In this document: in pieces, positions 10,546 through 15,685 of the stretch
Position numbering within the stretch: position 1 is the stretch's first letter
Layout: each line of letters opens with the position of its first letter
Source: Bryobacteraceae bacterium
GTDB taxonomy: Bacteria; Acidobacteriota; Terriglobia; Bryobacterales; Bryobacteraceae
Direction of reading: 5' to 3'
NCBI GenBank assembly: GCA_026002875.1
Contig: BPGE01000001.1
Span: 2,728,001 to 2,792,000, forward strand
Length of the DNA stretch: 64,000 nt
Notes under the pieces: generated by a model
Databases searched by the model: none
Seen by the model: only the letters and a program-made list of their open reading frames with translations
What the model was told of the DNA's origin: nothing
Made by a program: the position numbers and the translations under genes

Positions 10546-11034
10546 TCAGGGAATCCGGGGCAGTGCAAGCAGCTTTTTCTGCCAGGCGGCGATTTCCGCG
10601 GGCGAGGGCTTCAGCCCGTCGTAATAGGTTCCGAGGAGCCGCAATTCGACGCCCGCGCCGTTGCGGAAATAGTGCACCGCCGGGCTGGTGGCGTCTCCCT
10701 GGCTGTCCTGGACGCGCGCGCCATCCGGGTCGTTGGGGACAGCCGTCAGGCGCCCGGCGAGCGTGTCGAAATGCTGGGCGGCGCTGGCCCTGGAGCCGTA
10801 ACGGGTTGTCTTGAGCATCAGCGTGAATTCGCGGTTGCCGGCTTTCAATTTATAGCGGCAGTCCTGGATCGAGCCGGAACCGAGCGGAATGGACATTCCG
10901 GGTTTTGCGTCCAGGACCGTCACGCCCAGCGCCGCTCCAACCTGAGCGGACGTGAGCGCGCAGGCGGCGGGCTGGCCGGACTGGCTCCAGCCGGGAGCTG
11001 CGAGAAGAAACAGAACGCCAATGGCGCGCATCAT
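10546..11034 (-). CDS. Small secreted protein, function unknown
   Basis: The protein has 162 residues. A clear Shine-Dalgarno (GAGGAGGGG) precedes tandem ATGs at 11034 and 11031. The signal peptide MMRAIGVLFLLAAPGWSQS is followed by ACALTSAQVGAALGVTV, a short helical motif often seen in periplasmic solute-sensing or DUF3558-like proteins. The rest is a compact alpha/beta domain with two Cys (ACALTS and IQDCRYKL) that could form a disulfide. No catalytic motif is recognised. It is divergent from the triplicated-promoter propeller gene, with about 240 bases between them. Confidence 0.75.
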   Translation of the reverse strand: MMRAIGVLFLLAAPGWSQSGQPAACALTSAQVGAALGVTVLDAKPGMSIPLGSGSIQDCRYKLKAGNREFTLMLKTTRYGSRASAAQHFDTLAGRLTAVPNDPDGARVQDSQGDATSPAVHYFRNGAGVELRLLGTYYDGLKPSPAEIAAWQKKLLALPRIP

Positions 11035-11271
11035 GGAATCCCCTCCTCAACAAGAATGGATCGATAAACGCGAATGGTCCGATTGTAGCATCGGAGCGGG
11101 GCGGGAGGCCGTCAGCGCCAGGAGCGCCGCATGAATCCGCTCCGCGCTGCGCGCCGCTCTGCTTCGCCTGGCTCGGGAACGGTCCGGCGCGGGCTTTTCG
11201 GGCGGAAGCAGGGTTGCCTGCCTCCGGCAGGCGGGCATGAGCGGAAGCCGGGATCTGTTTTTCTCGAGTAT

Positions 11272-11721
11272 CAGGCCTTGTGCTCTGGATCCAGCGGTCA
11301 TACACTACCCGTGGTTCACAGCAGGCGGACGACATGGCTGACCGTTCCCCGCCGATCCGCAAGGCGCCGATGCGCGCCCCGGAGCGGCTGCATTCGTGGA
11401 AGGAGATTGCGGCGTGGTTCGCAGGCCTTGTGCTCTGGATCCAGCGGTCATACACTACCCGTGGTTCACAGCAGGCGGACGACATGGCTGACCGTTCCCC
11501 GCCGATCCGCAAGGCGCCGATGCGCGCCCCGGAGCGGCTGCATTCGTGGAAGGAGATTGCGGCGTGGTTCGCAGGCCTTGTGCTCTGGATCCAGCGGTCA
11601 TACACTACCCGTGGTTCACAGCAGGCGGACGACATGGCTGACCGTTCCCCGCCGATCCGCAAGGCGCCGATGCGCGCCCCGGAGCGGCTGCATTCGTGGA
11701 AGGAGATTGCGGCGTGGTTCG
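11272..11721 (+). repeat. Three perfect tandem copies of a 150-bp unit carrying a promoter, start codon and first 29 codons
   Basis: Copies 11272-11421, 11422-11571 and 11572-11721 are identical base for base. Each contains a -35/-10 pair, a short leader, ATG and the first 29 codons of the propeller gene. The unit is exactly 50 codons, so the frame stays open through all three copies. Outside the array the flanks differ. Perfect identity means a very recent duplication or an assembly artefact. Confidence 0.97.
11278..11306 (+). promoter_or_regulatory. Sigma-70-like promoter, present three times
   Basis: TTGTGC (11278-11283) and TACACT (11301-11306) are separated by 17 bases. The ATG at 11334 lies 27 bases after the -10. 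Identical copies sit at +150 and +300 (11428-11456 and 11578-11606). In the read-through protein the promoter DNA is translated as linker sequence. Confidence 0.5.
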
Positions 11722-13655
11722 ATCGTACGGAGCGGACGGTTCAGCGATGGGAGCAGCAGGAGCAGATGCCCGTGCACCGGCTGGTGCACAGCAAGCGCAG
11801 TTCGATCTATGCCGAGACGCGGGAGCTGGAGGAATGGGCGGCGCGCCGCAGAGAACTGCTGGAAGCGCCGGAGAAGCCGCCGGCGCCGCGCGGGGGGCTG
11901 ACGCTGGCGGCGCTCGCGATCGCCGGCTGCTGCCTGTGCGCCGCGGCTCTCTTCTGGAGCGCGAGACATTTCTTTCCGGGAGAGGCGGCGCAACCGCCGC
12001 TGCGGGCTGTCAGGATTACGGCGTTTCCGGGCAGCGAGAGCCACCCCGCGCTGTCGCCCGACGGGACGCGTCTTGCGTTTTCCTTTACCCGCACCGGCGC
12101 GAGCGACGCTGATCTGTCGCTGCTGCTGCTGGGCGTCGGGCAGGTTCAGCCTCTGACCCGCGGCGGGCGCCATGACCTCTGGGCGGCGTGGTCGCCCGAC
12201 GGGCGCTGGATCGCGTTCCTCCGGCCGGGCGCGAACAGGGAGCCGGCAAGCCTGATCCGGCTGCCTGCCATCGGAGGCGAGGAGAAACTGCTCACGCGCA
12301 TCTGTCCTTACCCGCGCCAATTGCCGGCGCCCTATTACGCCTGGATGCCTGACAGCCGCTCGATCATCCTGTCGGATCAGGCAGGAACCGAATGCGCGGG
12401 TCCGTTCCAGTTACAGCACGTGGATCTCGAAACGGGTGTCAGGACTCTGCTGACGCAGGCGCGCCAGTTCCTCGCACACAGCGCGCCTGCGGTTTCTCCG
12501 GACGGACGCCGACTGGCGTTCATCCGCTGGATGCCGCCCACTTACGAGCTGATGACAGCGGAGATCCGGAAAGCGGAAGCCAGCGGGCAGCCGGAGCTGG
12601 GCGCGGTGGCGGTGCTCGTGAAACTGACGAACCCGATTTCGCACCCTGTGTGGCTGCCCGACAGCCGCACGCTGCTCTATCAGACGTTCACCCCCGAGAC
12701 GTACAGCCTGTGGCGTGTTGCGGTCAAAGGCTCCCCGCAGCCCCGGCAGGTCCTGATCGAGGGCACGTTCGGAGGCGCGCTGTCCCTCAGCCAAAGGGGC
12801 GACAAGCTGGCCTTCAGCCACTCGGAGACAGATTACGACCTGTGGCGGCAGGACCTGCGCCATCCCGGAAGTCCGCCGGTCCGGTTCGCTTCCTCGACGG
12901 CGCGCGACCTCCATCCAAGTTTTTCGATCCGGGGCGACCGGGTGCTGTTCACTTCGAACCGGTCGGGGGCGTATCAGATCTGGGTGGCGAATCAGGATGG
13001 CTCTGAAGCAAGACAGCTGACCCAGGTGGCCGAGGGGTGGCCGCTGGCGCCGTCATGGTCGGCGGACGGGCGGCGATTCGCATTCAACATCCAGAATGGC
13101 GAGCGGTACGGGCTGGCGGTGGGTTCTCTCGACGCCGGGCCGGTGCGGCACATCGAGACCCCGGGGCTGAACGCCCGCGGGCCGCGGTGGTCGCCGGATG
13201 GGAAATACCTGTACTTTTACGCCCGGCGGGACGGACCTTTCGGGATCTACCGGGTGCCGGCGGATGGAGGGGCGGTGGAACCCGTCAACACCGACGTGGC
13301 GAGTTTCCCCGTGTTCAGCCCGGACGGGGGCTCTCTGTACTGCATGCAGGGGCGGCCGGAGGGAGGAATCTGGCGGCACTCCAACGGGACATCGGAACGG
13401 CTGCCCTTGCCCCGCCAGGGCTTCGACCATCTCGCGGTCTCGTCATCGAGCGTGTATTTCACCACGCCGGGTCAGCGGGCGCCCGCCACGCGCCTCGTCC
13501 GGTATGACGTGGGCTCGCGGAAACTGACTACGGTGCTCGAAGTCCCCGAGGGCATCCATGGCGGGTTCACTGTGACGGCGGACGACTCCACGCTCATTTA
13601 CGCCGCCCGCGTGAGCGCAGGCAGCGACCTCTGGCTGATCGAAAACTTCCGGTAG
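11334..13655 (+). CDS. HTH-anchored membrane PD40/TolB-type beta-propeller with triplicated N-terminus
   Basis: From the first ATG (11334) the product is 773 residues; from the third copy's ATG (11634) it is 673, which is probably the ancestral protein. Each repeat encodes MADRSPPIRKAP and the helix LHSWKEIAAWF, but only the last copy continues into the recognition helix (DRTERTVQRWEQ) and SSIYAETRELEEWAARR, an excisionase/MerR-like DNA-binding head. A membrane helix follows (LAALAIAGCCLCAAALF). The remainder is a PD40 propeller with repeated blades such as LSPDGTRLAFSF, WSPDGRWIAFLR and VSPDGRRLAFIR. Family relatives are membrane regulators typical of Acidobacteria; the signal is unknown. 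ATGs at 11334, 11484 and 11634 could give three nested isoforms. Confidence 0.85.
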   Translation: MADRSPPIRKAPMRAPERLHSWKEIAAWFAGLVLWIQRSYTTRGSQQADDMADRSPPIRKAPMRAPERLHSWKEIAAWFAGLVLWIQRSYTTRGSQQADDMADRSPPIRKAPMRAPERLHSWKEIAAWFDRTERTVQRWEQQEQMPVHRLVHSKRSSIYAETRELEEWAARRRELLEAPEKPPAPRGGLTLAALAIAGCCLCAAALFWSARHFFPGEAAQPPLRAVRITAFPGSESHPALSPDGTRLAFSFTRTGASDADLSLLLLGVGQVQPLTRGGRHDLWAAWSPDGRWIAFLRPGANREPASLIRLPAIGGEEKLLTRICPYPRQLPAPYYAWMPDSRSIILSDQAGTECAGPFQLQHVDLETGVRTLLTQARQFLAHSAPAVSPDGRRLAFIRWMPPTYELMTAEIRKAEASGQPELGAVAVLVKLTNPISHPVWLPDSRTLLYQTFTPETYSLWRVAVKGSPQPRQVLIEGTFGGALSLSQRGDKLAFSHSETDYDLWRQDLRHPGSPPVRFASSTARDLHPSFSIRGDRVLFTSNRSGAYQIWVANQDGSEARQLTQVAEGWPLAPSWSADGRRFAFNIQNGERYGLAVGSLDAGPVRHIETPGLNARGPRWSPDGKYLYFYARRDGPFGIYRVPADGGAVEPVNTDVASFPVFSPDGGSLYCMQGRPEGGIWRHSNGTSERLPLPRQGFDHLAVSSSSVYFTTPGQRAPATRLVRYDVGSRKLTTVLEVPEGIHGGFTVTADDSTLIYAARVSAGSDLWLIENFR

Positions 13656-13854
13656 GCGTCATCAGGCGACATCGGCGCTTTGTCGCTTCATGTCAGGGTG
13701 TTCTCCGCACGCTCCTGCCTTACACTCCATCGTCGGAGGGATGCGGATGAAGCGCCAGGCTGCTCCCGCCGTTGCCATGCCGGCGGCCATGCAATGTGGC
13801 GCGCGCCACCCGCGCATCTCCACCAGCCACCCCAAGAAGAGGAGAACAGCCATC

Positions 13855-14331
13855 ATGTCGAAACGAACCGTGTTGGTTCTCGCAGCCCTGCTCGTGCTCG
13901 CCGTGGGCGCCGCCCCGGCGCAGAATCCCTGGATCGGCACCTGGAAGGCCAACCTTGCCGAGTCGGTATTTGCTTCCAATCCCCCGCCCAGGAGCATCGA
14001 GTACACGTGGTCGCAGGAACCCGACGGCAGGCTCAAGTTCGCTGCAAAGCGGGTTCCCGCCACGGGAGAGACAATTCAATACACCTACATCTGCCGGTGC
14101 GATGGCGACGAGGTGCCCATGCCTGGATGGCCAGACGCTGGCAGGACGATCATGGCCATCATAAGCACGGACCTGAAGTCCAGCATCTGGCTGACGAAGC
14201 GCGACGGGAAGATCGCGTACATGGGCCTGACGGCCATCTCCGCTGACGGCAAGACCCTCATCCAGACGTCGCGGGGGATGGACCAGAAGGGCAGGCTGGG
14301 CAACACCCGCATCGTGTTCGAGCGTCAATAA
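13855..14331 (+). CDS. Small secreted protein, lipocalin-like length, function unknown
   Basis: The protein has 158 residues. The ATG at 13855 follows AAGAGGAGA by ten bases and opens a signal peptide (MSKRTVLVLAALLVLAVGAAPAQ). The mature part begins NPWIGTWKANLAES, an opening frequent in small Acidobacterial secreted proteins annotated as hypothetical. It continues as antiparallel beta sequence with phrases such as IEYTWSQEPDG, YTYICRCDGDE and RIVFERQ. One close Cys pair (ICRC) is present. No enzyme motif is seen. It is followed by a bidirectional terminator-like hairpin. Confidence 0.75.
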   Translation: MSKRTVLVLAALLVLAVGAAPAQNPWIGTWKANLAESVFASNPPPRSIEYTWSQEPDGRLKFAAKRVPATGETIQYTYICRCDGDEVPMPGWPDAGRTIMAIISTDLKSSIWLTKRDGKIAYMGLTAISADGKTLIQTSRGMDQKGRLGNTRIVFERQ

Positions 14332-14370
14332 TCCGATTTCCGCCAAGGGATCGGCCCTGGCGTGGCGAAA

Positions 14371-14411
14371 GGCTCCGGCCGGTGCGGTTGGAGGATCCCC
14401 CGGCCGGAGCC
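14371..14411. terminator. Bidirectional terminator-like hairpin
   Basis: GGCTCCGGCCGG (14371-14382) pairs perfectly with 14400-14411 across 17 bases, between two convergent genes. Read on the minus strand the stem is followed by TTTCG, so it best serves the DUF1080 gene. A second, bulged hairpin (14341-14362) serves the other side. Confidence 0.6.
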
Positions 14412-14433
14412 TGGCGCAGGCGGGCGGCCCAGC

Positions 14434-15639
14434 CTACTTCGCGGGCTCCAGCACTTCGATGTCTTTGAACCAGACTTCGGTGGGGCGCTTGGCGCCGTGC
14501 GCCTGCAGGCCGATGACGCCTTCCAGCCGGCCGGCGGTATCGTCGGGCAACTCGAGCGTCTTGACGCCGTTGATGTGGAACACGATGCGGTGGCCGTGCA
14601 GCGACGCCGTCATCTCGTTCCAATCGCCGGCATGGACGGCGGCGTTGTCCTCGGGCCCCGTGACCCACTTGCGGCCGTTGGGGCCGGTCTCCCAGAAGCC
14701 GCCGGTGCGGGCCTCGGCATCCACTTCCACTTCATAGGCGGCGTAGTTGGCCGGGTCGGTGCGGACAAAGACGCCGGAATTGCCCTTGAGGATTTTGAAT
14801 TTCAGCCGCAGGGTGAGATCGCGGAAGGAGCGTTCGCTCAGCACCATGGCGATGCGCGGGTCGTCGTCTTTCGAGCGCAGGCGGAAGGCGCCGTCGACGA
14901 TCTCGGCGAGTCCCGCGCCGTTGTGCTTCCAGCCAGTCCACGTTTTGCCGTCCCAGATGCGGCGCCACTCGTGGCGGCCGAGGTCCTGGATGCGGATGTT
15001 GCGCCAGCGCACCTGGGCGGGCTTTTCGCCCTTGTAGGAGTGCACCTGGAGGGCGATGAATCCGCTGAGGTCGACGGGGTCGGTCAGGTGGGCGCACGGC
15101 ACGCCGTTGACCCACACGCGGATCGTGTCGCCGCGGGCCTCGATGCGGTAGTGATTCCACTGGTTGTCCTTGAACGCCTTTGATGCCACGGGGTCGGAGG
15201 CGATGTTGTGCAGCCAGCCGCGGCGGGCTTCGTCATAGATGCCGCCGGAGGAGCCGGACTTCTCGTTGGCGATTTCGACCTGGTAGCCGTAGACGCGCCC
15301 TTTGGGAACCTTGCGCTCGACCCACCTGCCGTTGTCGAAGACGCGGATGGGCCCTTCGTCGGGGTAGCGGTGGGAACGGATCTGGATGCCGGAGTTCAGC
15401 GCCGGGTCGGTCTTCGTCTCCAGTTCGAGGATGAAATCACCGTACTCGCGCTTCGTGCAGAGGAAGCTGTTGGGGCTGCCCTCGGCGGTGGTGCCGACGA
15501 TGGCGCCGTCTTCCACTTTGTAGGTGGCGAAGCCGTTGCAGACCTCCCAGCCGTTCAAAGTCTTTCCGTCGAACAGCGGGGTCCAGGTTTGCGCGCCGAG
15601 CAGCGCGCAGAAGAGAAAAAGCAGAGCTGCAGGTCTCAT
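14434..15639 (-). CDS. Secreted two-domain DUF1080 protein (3-keto-disaccharide hydrolase family)
   Basis: The protein is 401 residues from the ATG at 15639, which opens a compact signal peptide (MRPAALLFLFCALLGAQ); an in-frame ATG lies five codons upstream. It holds two tandem DUF1080 sandwiches. The first starts WTPLFDGKTLNGWEV and contains YGDFILELETK, NSGIQIRSH and YGYQVEIANEKSG. The second starts WRRIWDGKTWTGWKHNG and contains GNSGVFVRTDP and YEVEVDAE. Known relatives cleave 3-keto-glycosides or bind sugars. The duplicated domain may bind a longer substrate. It lies 46 bases downstream of terC on the same strand, so they may be co-transcribed, although no functional link is obvious. Confidence 0.88.
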   Translation of the reverse strand: MRPAALLFLFCALLGAQTWTPLFDGKTLNGWEVCNGFATYKVEDGAIVGTTAEGSPNSFLCTKREYGDFILELETKTDPALNSGIQIRSHRYPDEGPIRVFDNGRWVERKVPKGRVYGYQVEIANEKSGSSGGIYDEARRGWLHNIASDPVASKAFKDNQWNHYRIEARGDTIRVWVNGVPCAHLTDPVDLSGFIALQVHSYKGEKPAQVRWRNIRIQDLGRHEWRRIWDGKTWTGWKHNGAGLAEIVDGAFRLRSKDDDPRIAMVLSERSFRDLTLRLKFKILKGNSGVFVRTDPANYAAYEVEVDAEARTGGFWETGPNGRKWVTGPEDNAAVHAGDWNEMTASLHGHRIVFHINGVKTLELPDDTAGRLEGVIGLQAHGAKRPTEVWFKDIEVLEPAK

Positions 15640-15685
15640 GGTACCGGCCAACATCCTACACGATTGCCGGTTCCTCCGCGGCGGA

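Follow-up and report, generated by a model that had tools for sequence, protein, structure and literature searches.

The DNA analysed here is a window of 64,000 nucleotides from Bryobacteraceae bacterium (GCA_026002875.1, contig BPGE01000001.1, forward-strand positions 2728001–2792000), the genome of which is a single contig of 4,863,736 bases (4.86 Mb) with a completeness of 100%. At 11272–11721 of the window, Tandem Repeats Finder revealed an array of period 150 with 3.0 copies and 100% matches, and a string test showed that one 150-mer, placed three times head-to-tail, accounts for exactly this interval, which upholds the three identical 150-bp units of a preliminary description of the locus (Table 1). 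The copies showed 0 differences in 300 position comparisons. Chance origin of three consecutive identical 150-mers is excluded. By the rule of three, the units diverge by less than about 1%, as expected if the array arose recently, has been homogenised or is an artefact. Two further tandem rows in the window, both short, have a period of 20–21.

Each unit joins 62 bp of leader to 88 bp of coding sequence counted from an ATG at base 63, and the coding part amounts to 29 codons and one base, ATG included, in all three units. The three ATGs are directly observed to lie in one open frame, the stop of which ends at 13655, and the corresponding products have 773, 723 and 673 residues; recomputation returned the same lengths, and the same in-frame arithmetic (150 bp being 50 codons), as had been described. 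The linker of 21 residues that was said to arise from promoter DNA likewise agrees in length with the translation of the former leader, AGLVLWIQRSYTTRGSQQADD.

Table 1. Features of the array and of the gene that begins in it (window positions)
Feature	Position	Strand	Remarks
Repeat unit 1	11272..11421	+	62 bp former leader, ATG 11334, 29 codons + 1 base
Repeat unit 2	11422..11571	+	Identical to unit 1, ATG 11484
Repeat unit 3	11572..11721	+	Identical; ATG 11634, the likely ancestral start; sole copy continuing into the complete HTH-like head
Promoter-like TTGTGC-17-TACACT	11278..11306	+	In unit 1, recurring in units 2 and 3; 7/12 matches
Open frame from ATG1	11334..13655	+	773 aa: HTH-like head, hydrophobic segment, PD40/TolB-like propeller
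Presumed ancestral gene	11634..13655	+	673 aa

Domain organization of the encoded protein

The protein matches PD40 (PF07676) with an E-value of 2.3e-42 and a score of 142.5 bits, where the cutoff is 20.9, which identifies the propeller. A match to DPPIV_N also lies above its cutoff and one to TruB_C lies below, while TolB chains in the PDB match the protein from an E-value of 3.2e-18. An assignment as TolB of the Tol-Pal system was considered and rejected, as the protein scores 145.2 bits against an equivalog cutoff of 343.15 and the TolB models all stay below their cutoffs. A membrane segment is predicted between the head and the propeller, where the 19-residue hydropathy peaks at 2.38 (residues 189–207 of the 773-residue form). 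The Pfam, NCBIfam and PDB matches and the hydropathy are all consistent with the membrane propeller regulator that the gene had been taken to encode.

The head gives a weak match to HTH_23 (E 4.1e-4; 20.5 bits, under the cutoff of 24.6) at residues 116–139 of the 773-residue form. The first two units end after HSWKEIAAWF, and the rest of the head continues from unit 3 only. Every unit had been said to carry the start of the DNA-binding head; units 1 and 2 hold just the beginning of the HTH-like part, and the HTH_23 match falls in copy 3 and beyond. The head motif of this gene, of the SWKEIA type, is common to seven other loci.

Open frame and the probable old start

The frame is kept open because 150 is a multiple of three and the 62-bp leader happens to be stop-free in frame. 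In a simulation that models one duplication, not two, the frame stays open in 6512 of 38801 duplications of 60–300 bp across this ATG (17%). The open frame is thus unremarkable and requires no selection. In the linker, 14 of the 21 codons have G or C at the third position, a lower proportion than in the gene (P 0.07).

A motif scan for the conserved head across the collected loci gave 10 rows, three of which are the gene itself. In all seven other motif-bearing loci a start codon (six ATG, one GTG) lies 20–24 residues before the conserved W, and in the array gene it is ATG3 that sits 21 residues before it, a position of the ancestral type. Three of the seven (L004, L007 and L017) are related over most of the protein, and L046–L049 were recruited via the head region. 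Several of the seven also offer alternative start codons, and the W-to-start spacing is a pattern, not proof. Because the spacing in relatives matches ATG3, translation probably began there before the duplication, and the 673-residue form is probably the ancestral type.

The 62 bases preceding each ATG are identical and include AGGCGG, by inspection a possible ribosome site. Initiation at ATG1 could lengthen the protein by 100 residues and initiation at ATG2 by 50, and nested isoforms from the three starts are possible. The RNA fold around the first ATG is less stable than most shuffles (z-score 1.30). Should translation proceed mostly from ATG1, the extra residues might disturb the head and the locus might be on its way to a pseudogene, an outcome for which the truncated head pieces encoded by units 1 and 2 speak. 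We consider it unlikely, however, given that the third start, the whole head and the intact 673-residue frame are retained.

Absence of an ortholog in four congeners

Some match to the protein was obtained in every one of the 41 genomes searched, own genome included. Beyond the own genome, the longer matches are 27–37% identical, and short matches confined to the head reach 54%. The best matches in the four congeners are merely 31–32% identical, whereas the neighbour gene at 14434–15654 is conserved in all four at 88–95% identity; the congeners have no ortholog of the array gene. No trace of the array gene was found in the available sequence adjoining the neighbour gene of the four congeners, three of which are draft assemblies of 60–180 contigs.

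On the other side of the array, the 162-residue gene at 10546–11034 is present in one of the four congeners (G004, 54% identity). There the counterparts of the two flanking genes are ~290 bp apart, so that the ~3.4 kb of window 11035–14433, which includes a 213-aa frame (13690–14331) besides the array gene, is absent between them. The gene may have been gained here or lost elsewhere; both are possible from these comparisons, and gain would be simpler.

A single-copy allele, which would represent the pre-duplication state, was sought in 40 relatives at the protein and DNA levels, with one genome per species, and none turned up. A search of genome_contigs returned no allele of another copy number, the one matched locus being 22% identical, and the junction sequence had no match in viral_contigs. 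The comparison with sister genomes that the preliminary description proposed as a check thus yielded neither an ortholog in the four congeners nor an allele with a different number of units.

Promoter-like sequence and copy-number variation

A -35/-10 promoter had been proposed for each unit. A scan for sigma-70-like sites at a threshold of 9/12 detected none within 11035–11760, and the best site (Table 1) is at chance level: 7/12 or better is reached by 2108 of 4000 150-mers drawn at random from the window (53%) and by 690 of 4000 random 62-mers (17%), 62 being the length of the leader. We therefore rejected the promoter as evidence, though not as a possibility, and there may be one of a weak or other kind.

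Recurrence of the arrangement was searched for as two WKEIA-coding motifs 121–151 bases apart with zero mismatches. Among 257 genomes of the order, two contained such a doubling, the own genome and G040, where the motif is part of each unit of a tandem repeat of 72/144 bp that is situated between predicted frames (L125:1343-1769); in coding DNA, none of the 256 other genomes of the order had the exact doubling at this spacing. Among 396 genomes drawn from the phylum, it occurred in the own genome only. Consistently, the 31 relative loci collected apart from the gene itself, some of which come without their 5' end, contain no repeat of period at least 90 with at least 1.5 exact copies; a partial 279-bp repeat in L055, with 1.43 copies, falls under the 1.5-copy filter. 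For this motif and spacing, the recurrence in related genes that a phase-variable locus would lead one to expect was not found.

These results bear on a model of a functional switch, in which transcription or translation starts, or else the length of the N-terminal arm, would be set by how many units are present, and in which gain and loss of units would create heterogeneity. Every unit is in frame with an ATG and identical upstream bases, and there are precedents for the required instability: tandem repeats undergo RecA-independent slipped mispairing (PMC3519483), and in Bordetella pertussis the Mn exporter gene BP3410 is inactivated by a 30-bp tandem duplication until this is lost under selection (PMC8546581). 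Against the model stand the chance-level promoter, an open frame that is explicable without selection and the confinement of the coding doubling to one genome, and we regard it as very improbable. There is equally little to recommend the idea that the array acts as an active dial of a membrane regulator, set by copy number. Each unit would then bring its own start, and gain or loss of 50 codons, always in frame, would alter the output together with the length of the arm that precedes the DNA-binding head. The variation of copy number, with changed expression, that was suggested at the outset thus finds no support in the searches for alleles of another copy number or in the coding DNA of the 256 other genomes of the order.

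A model for the origin of the array

We lean, at slightly better than even probability, towards a recent event of local tandem duplication that affected the 5' end of a lineage-specific gene encoding an HTH-like/membrane/TolB-like propeller protein, with expansion to three copies as a matter of chance and toleration of the outcome. In a first step, two points 150 bp apart would have been joined without homology. The edges show no microhomology, the base preceding the array being T and the unit ending in G, and the base following it being A and the unit starting with C. In a second step, slippage or unequal recombination between the identical 150-bp repeats would have taken two copies to three. 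Neither step would necessarily have ruined the gene, as the frame is still open and the 673-residue protein could still be made from the third ATG, with a start of the native type and the whole head. Retention of the frame and of the third start would explain why the triplication is tolerated, and the resulting state would probably be near-neutral and prone to collapse.

Short imperfect palindromes are found at both edges, at window 11266–11285 on the left and 11717–11728 on the right. Such palindromes span ~17% of the boundaries in the window, so that both edges would have one by chance in ~3% of cases; the test was post hoc, and nothing is rested on it. The palindromes could have had a part in how the array arose, or none.

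A duplication such as we favour would have several points of contact with known loci. The array gene shares with the HTH/membrane/PD40 propeller proteins of relatives the SWKEIA-type head and a start 20–24 residues before the W, but differs from the 31 other loci in that it alone passes the repeat filter. In Ehrlichia ruminantium, tandem repeats have a unit size that is reportedly near 150 bp. Two papers present the repeats of that species as targets of expansion and contraction (PMC10710844, PMC5040723), but there they are reported from noncoding regions of a genome of ~1.3 Mb, whereas here one array in an unrelated bacterium straddles a start codon. Like the array, BP3410 has identical tandem copies within a gene, and its authors deem their loss RecA-independent; unlike it, BP3410 has two 30-bp copies that inactivate the protein and whose loss was observed, as against three 150-bp copies that span the start (PMC8546581). 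Since repeats slip (PMC3519483) and the BP3410 duplication is lost, the array should, by analogy, be unstable. The present arrangement was not found in the titles and abstract openings of open-licence literature on duplications, artefacts, the protein family, Ehrlichia and repeat recombination.

The locus serves mostly as a caution: however striking, a perfect repeat that spans a start codon in frame can be explained without selection and without a switch. An array upheld by reads would offer a clean natural setting in which to follow a frame-neutral 5' triplication as it collapses, and to ask which of three identical starts ribosomes choose.

Assembly and other repeats in the genome

The caution that the array could be a mis-assembly, also raised in the preliminary description, is a fair one. 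The cell might have one or two copies, the extra ones having been added in assembly, gap filling or polishing, and 150 is a common short-read length. The period of the array, the identity of its copies and the lack of microhomology at its edges also fit such an artefact and so count against the duplication. An independent assembly was not found via genome_contigs or viral_contigs, both of which may omit records of the own genome. On the other hand, a k-mer assembler builds such a repeat only from real junction sequence in the reads, and the complete genome in one contig suggests long reads. A survey of 60 further stretches of the genome (1.19 of 4.86 Mb) revealed no second perfect 150-bp array. 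Taken together, an artefact is a less probable explanation than the duplication, though a considerable one.

In the survey, 17 rows had a period of at least 90 and 1.5 or more exact copies, and the period of a single row was 150. This duplication (L056:18453-18743, G000:C1:18453-18743; ~1.9 copies) is coding and belongs to an Ala- and Glu-rich open frame with a length of at least 683 residues, and its copies are identical at 138 of 141 positions; as they differ at the other three, it is not a pasted read. Exact copies elsewhere may mean that duplications occur in this genome or that its assembly produces them, a point of weak force either way.

Fourteen of the 17 rows resemble multiples of a ~63-bp repeat. 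Tandem units of this length with an inner hairpin (CCCTCGCGCAAGCGCGAGGG type) recur in many of the genome stretches sampled, including L042:6804-7537, L038:4491-4971, L067, L068:11885-12220, L074, L081 and L091. The remaining two rows are exact duplications of 197 and 1190 bp in an insertion-sequence-like region (L066:14604-17363), presumably of the IS3 type, where the 197-bp duplication adjoins the 1190-bp one, a tandem duplication of two transposase-like frames. In the congener G002, 20 stretches (0.4 Mb) gave four rows, of which three resemble CRISPR arrays; a period of 150 was not among them. A CRISPR-like array with repeats of ~36 bases and a period of 66–70 also lies at L070:14343-16222 (G000), and nearly the same repeat occurs in L113 (G002). 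Longer exact repeats in L070 and L113 hint at duplicated spacers.
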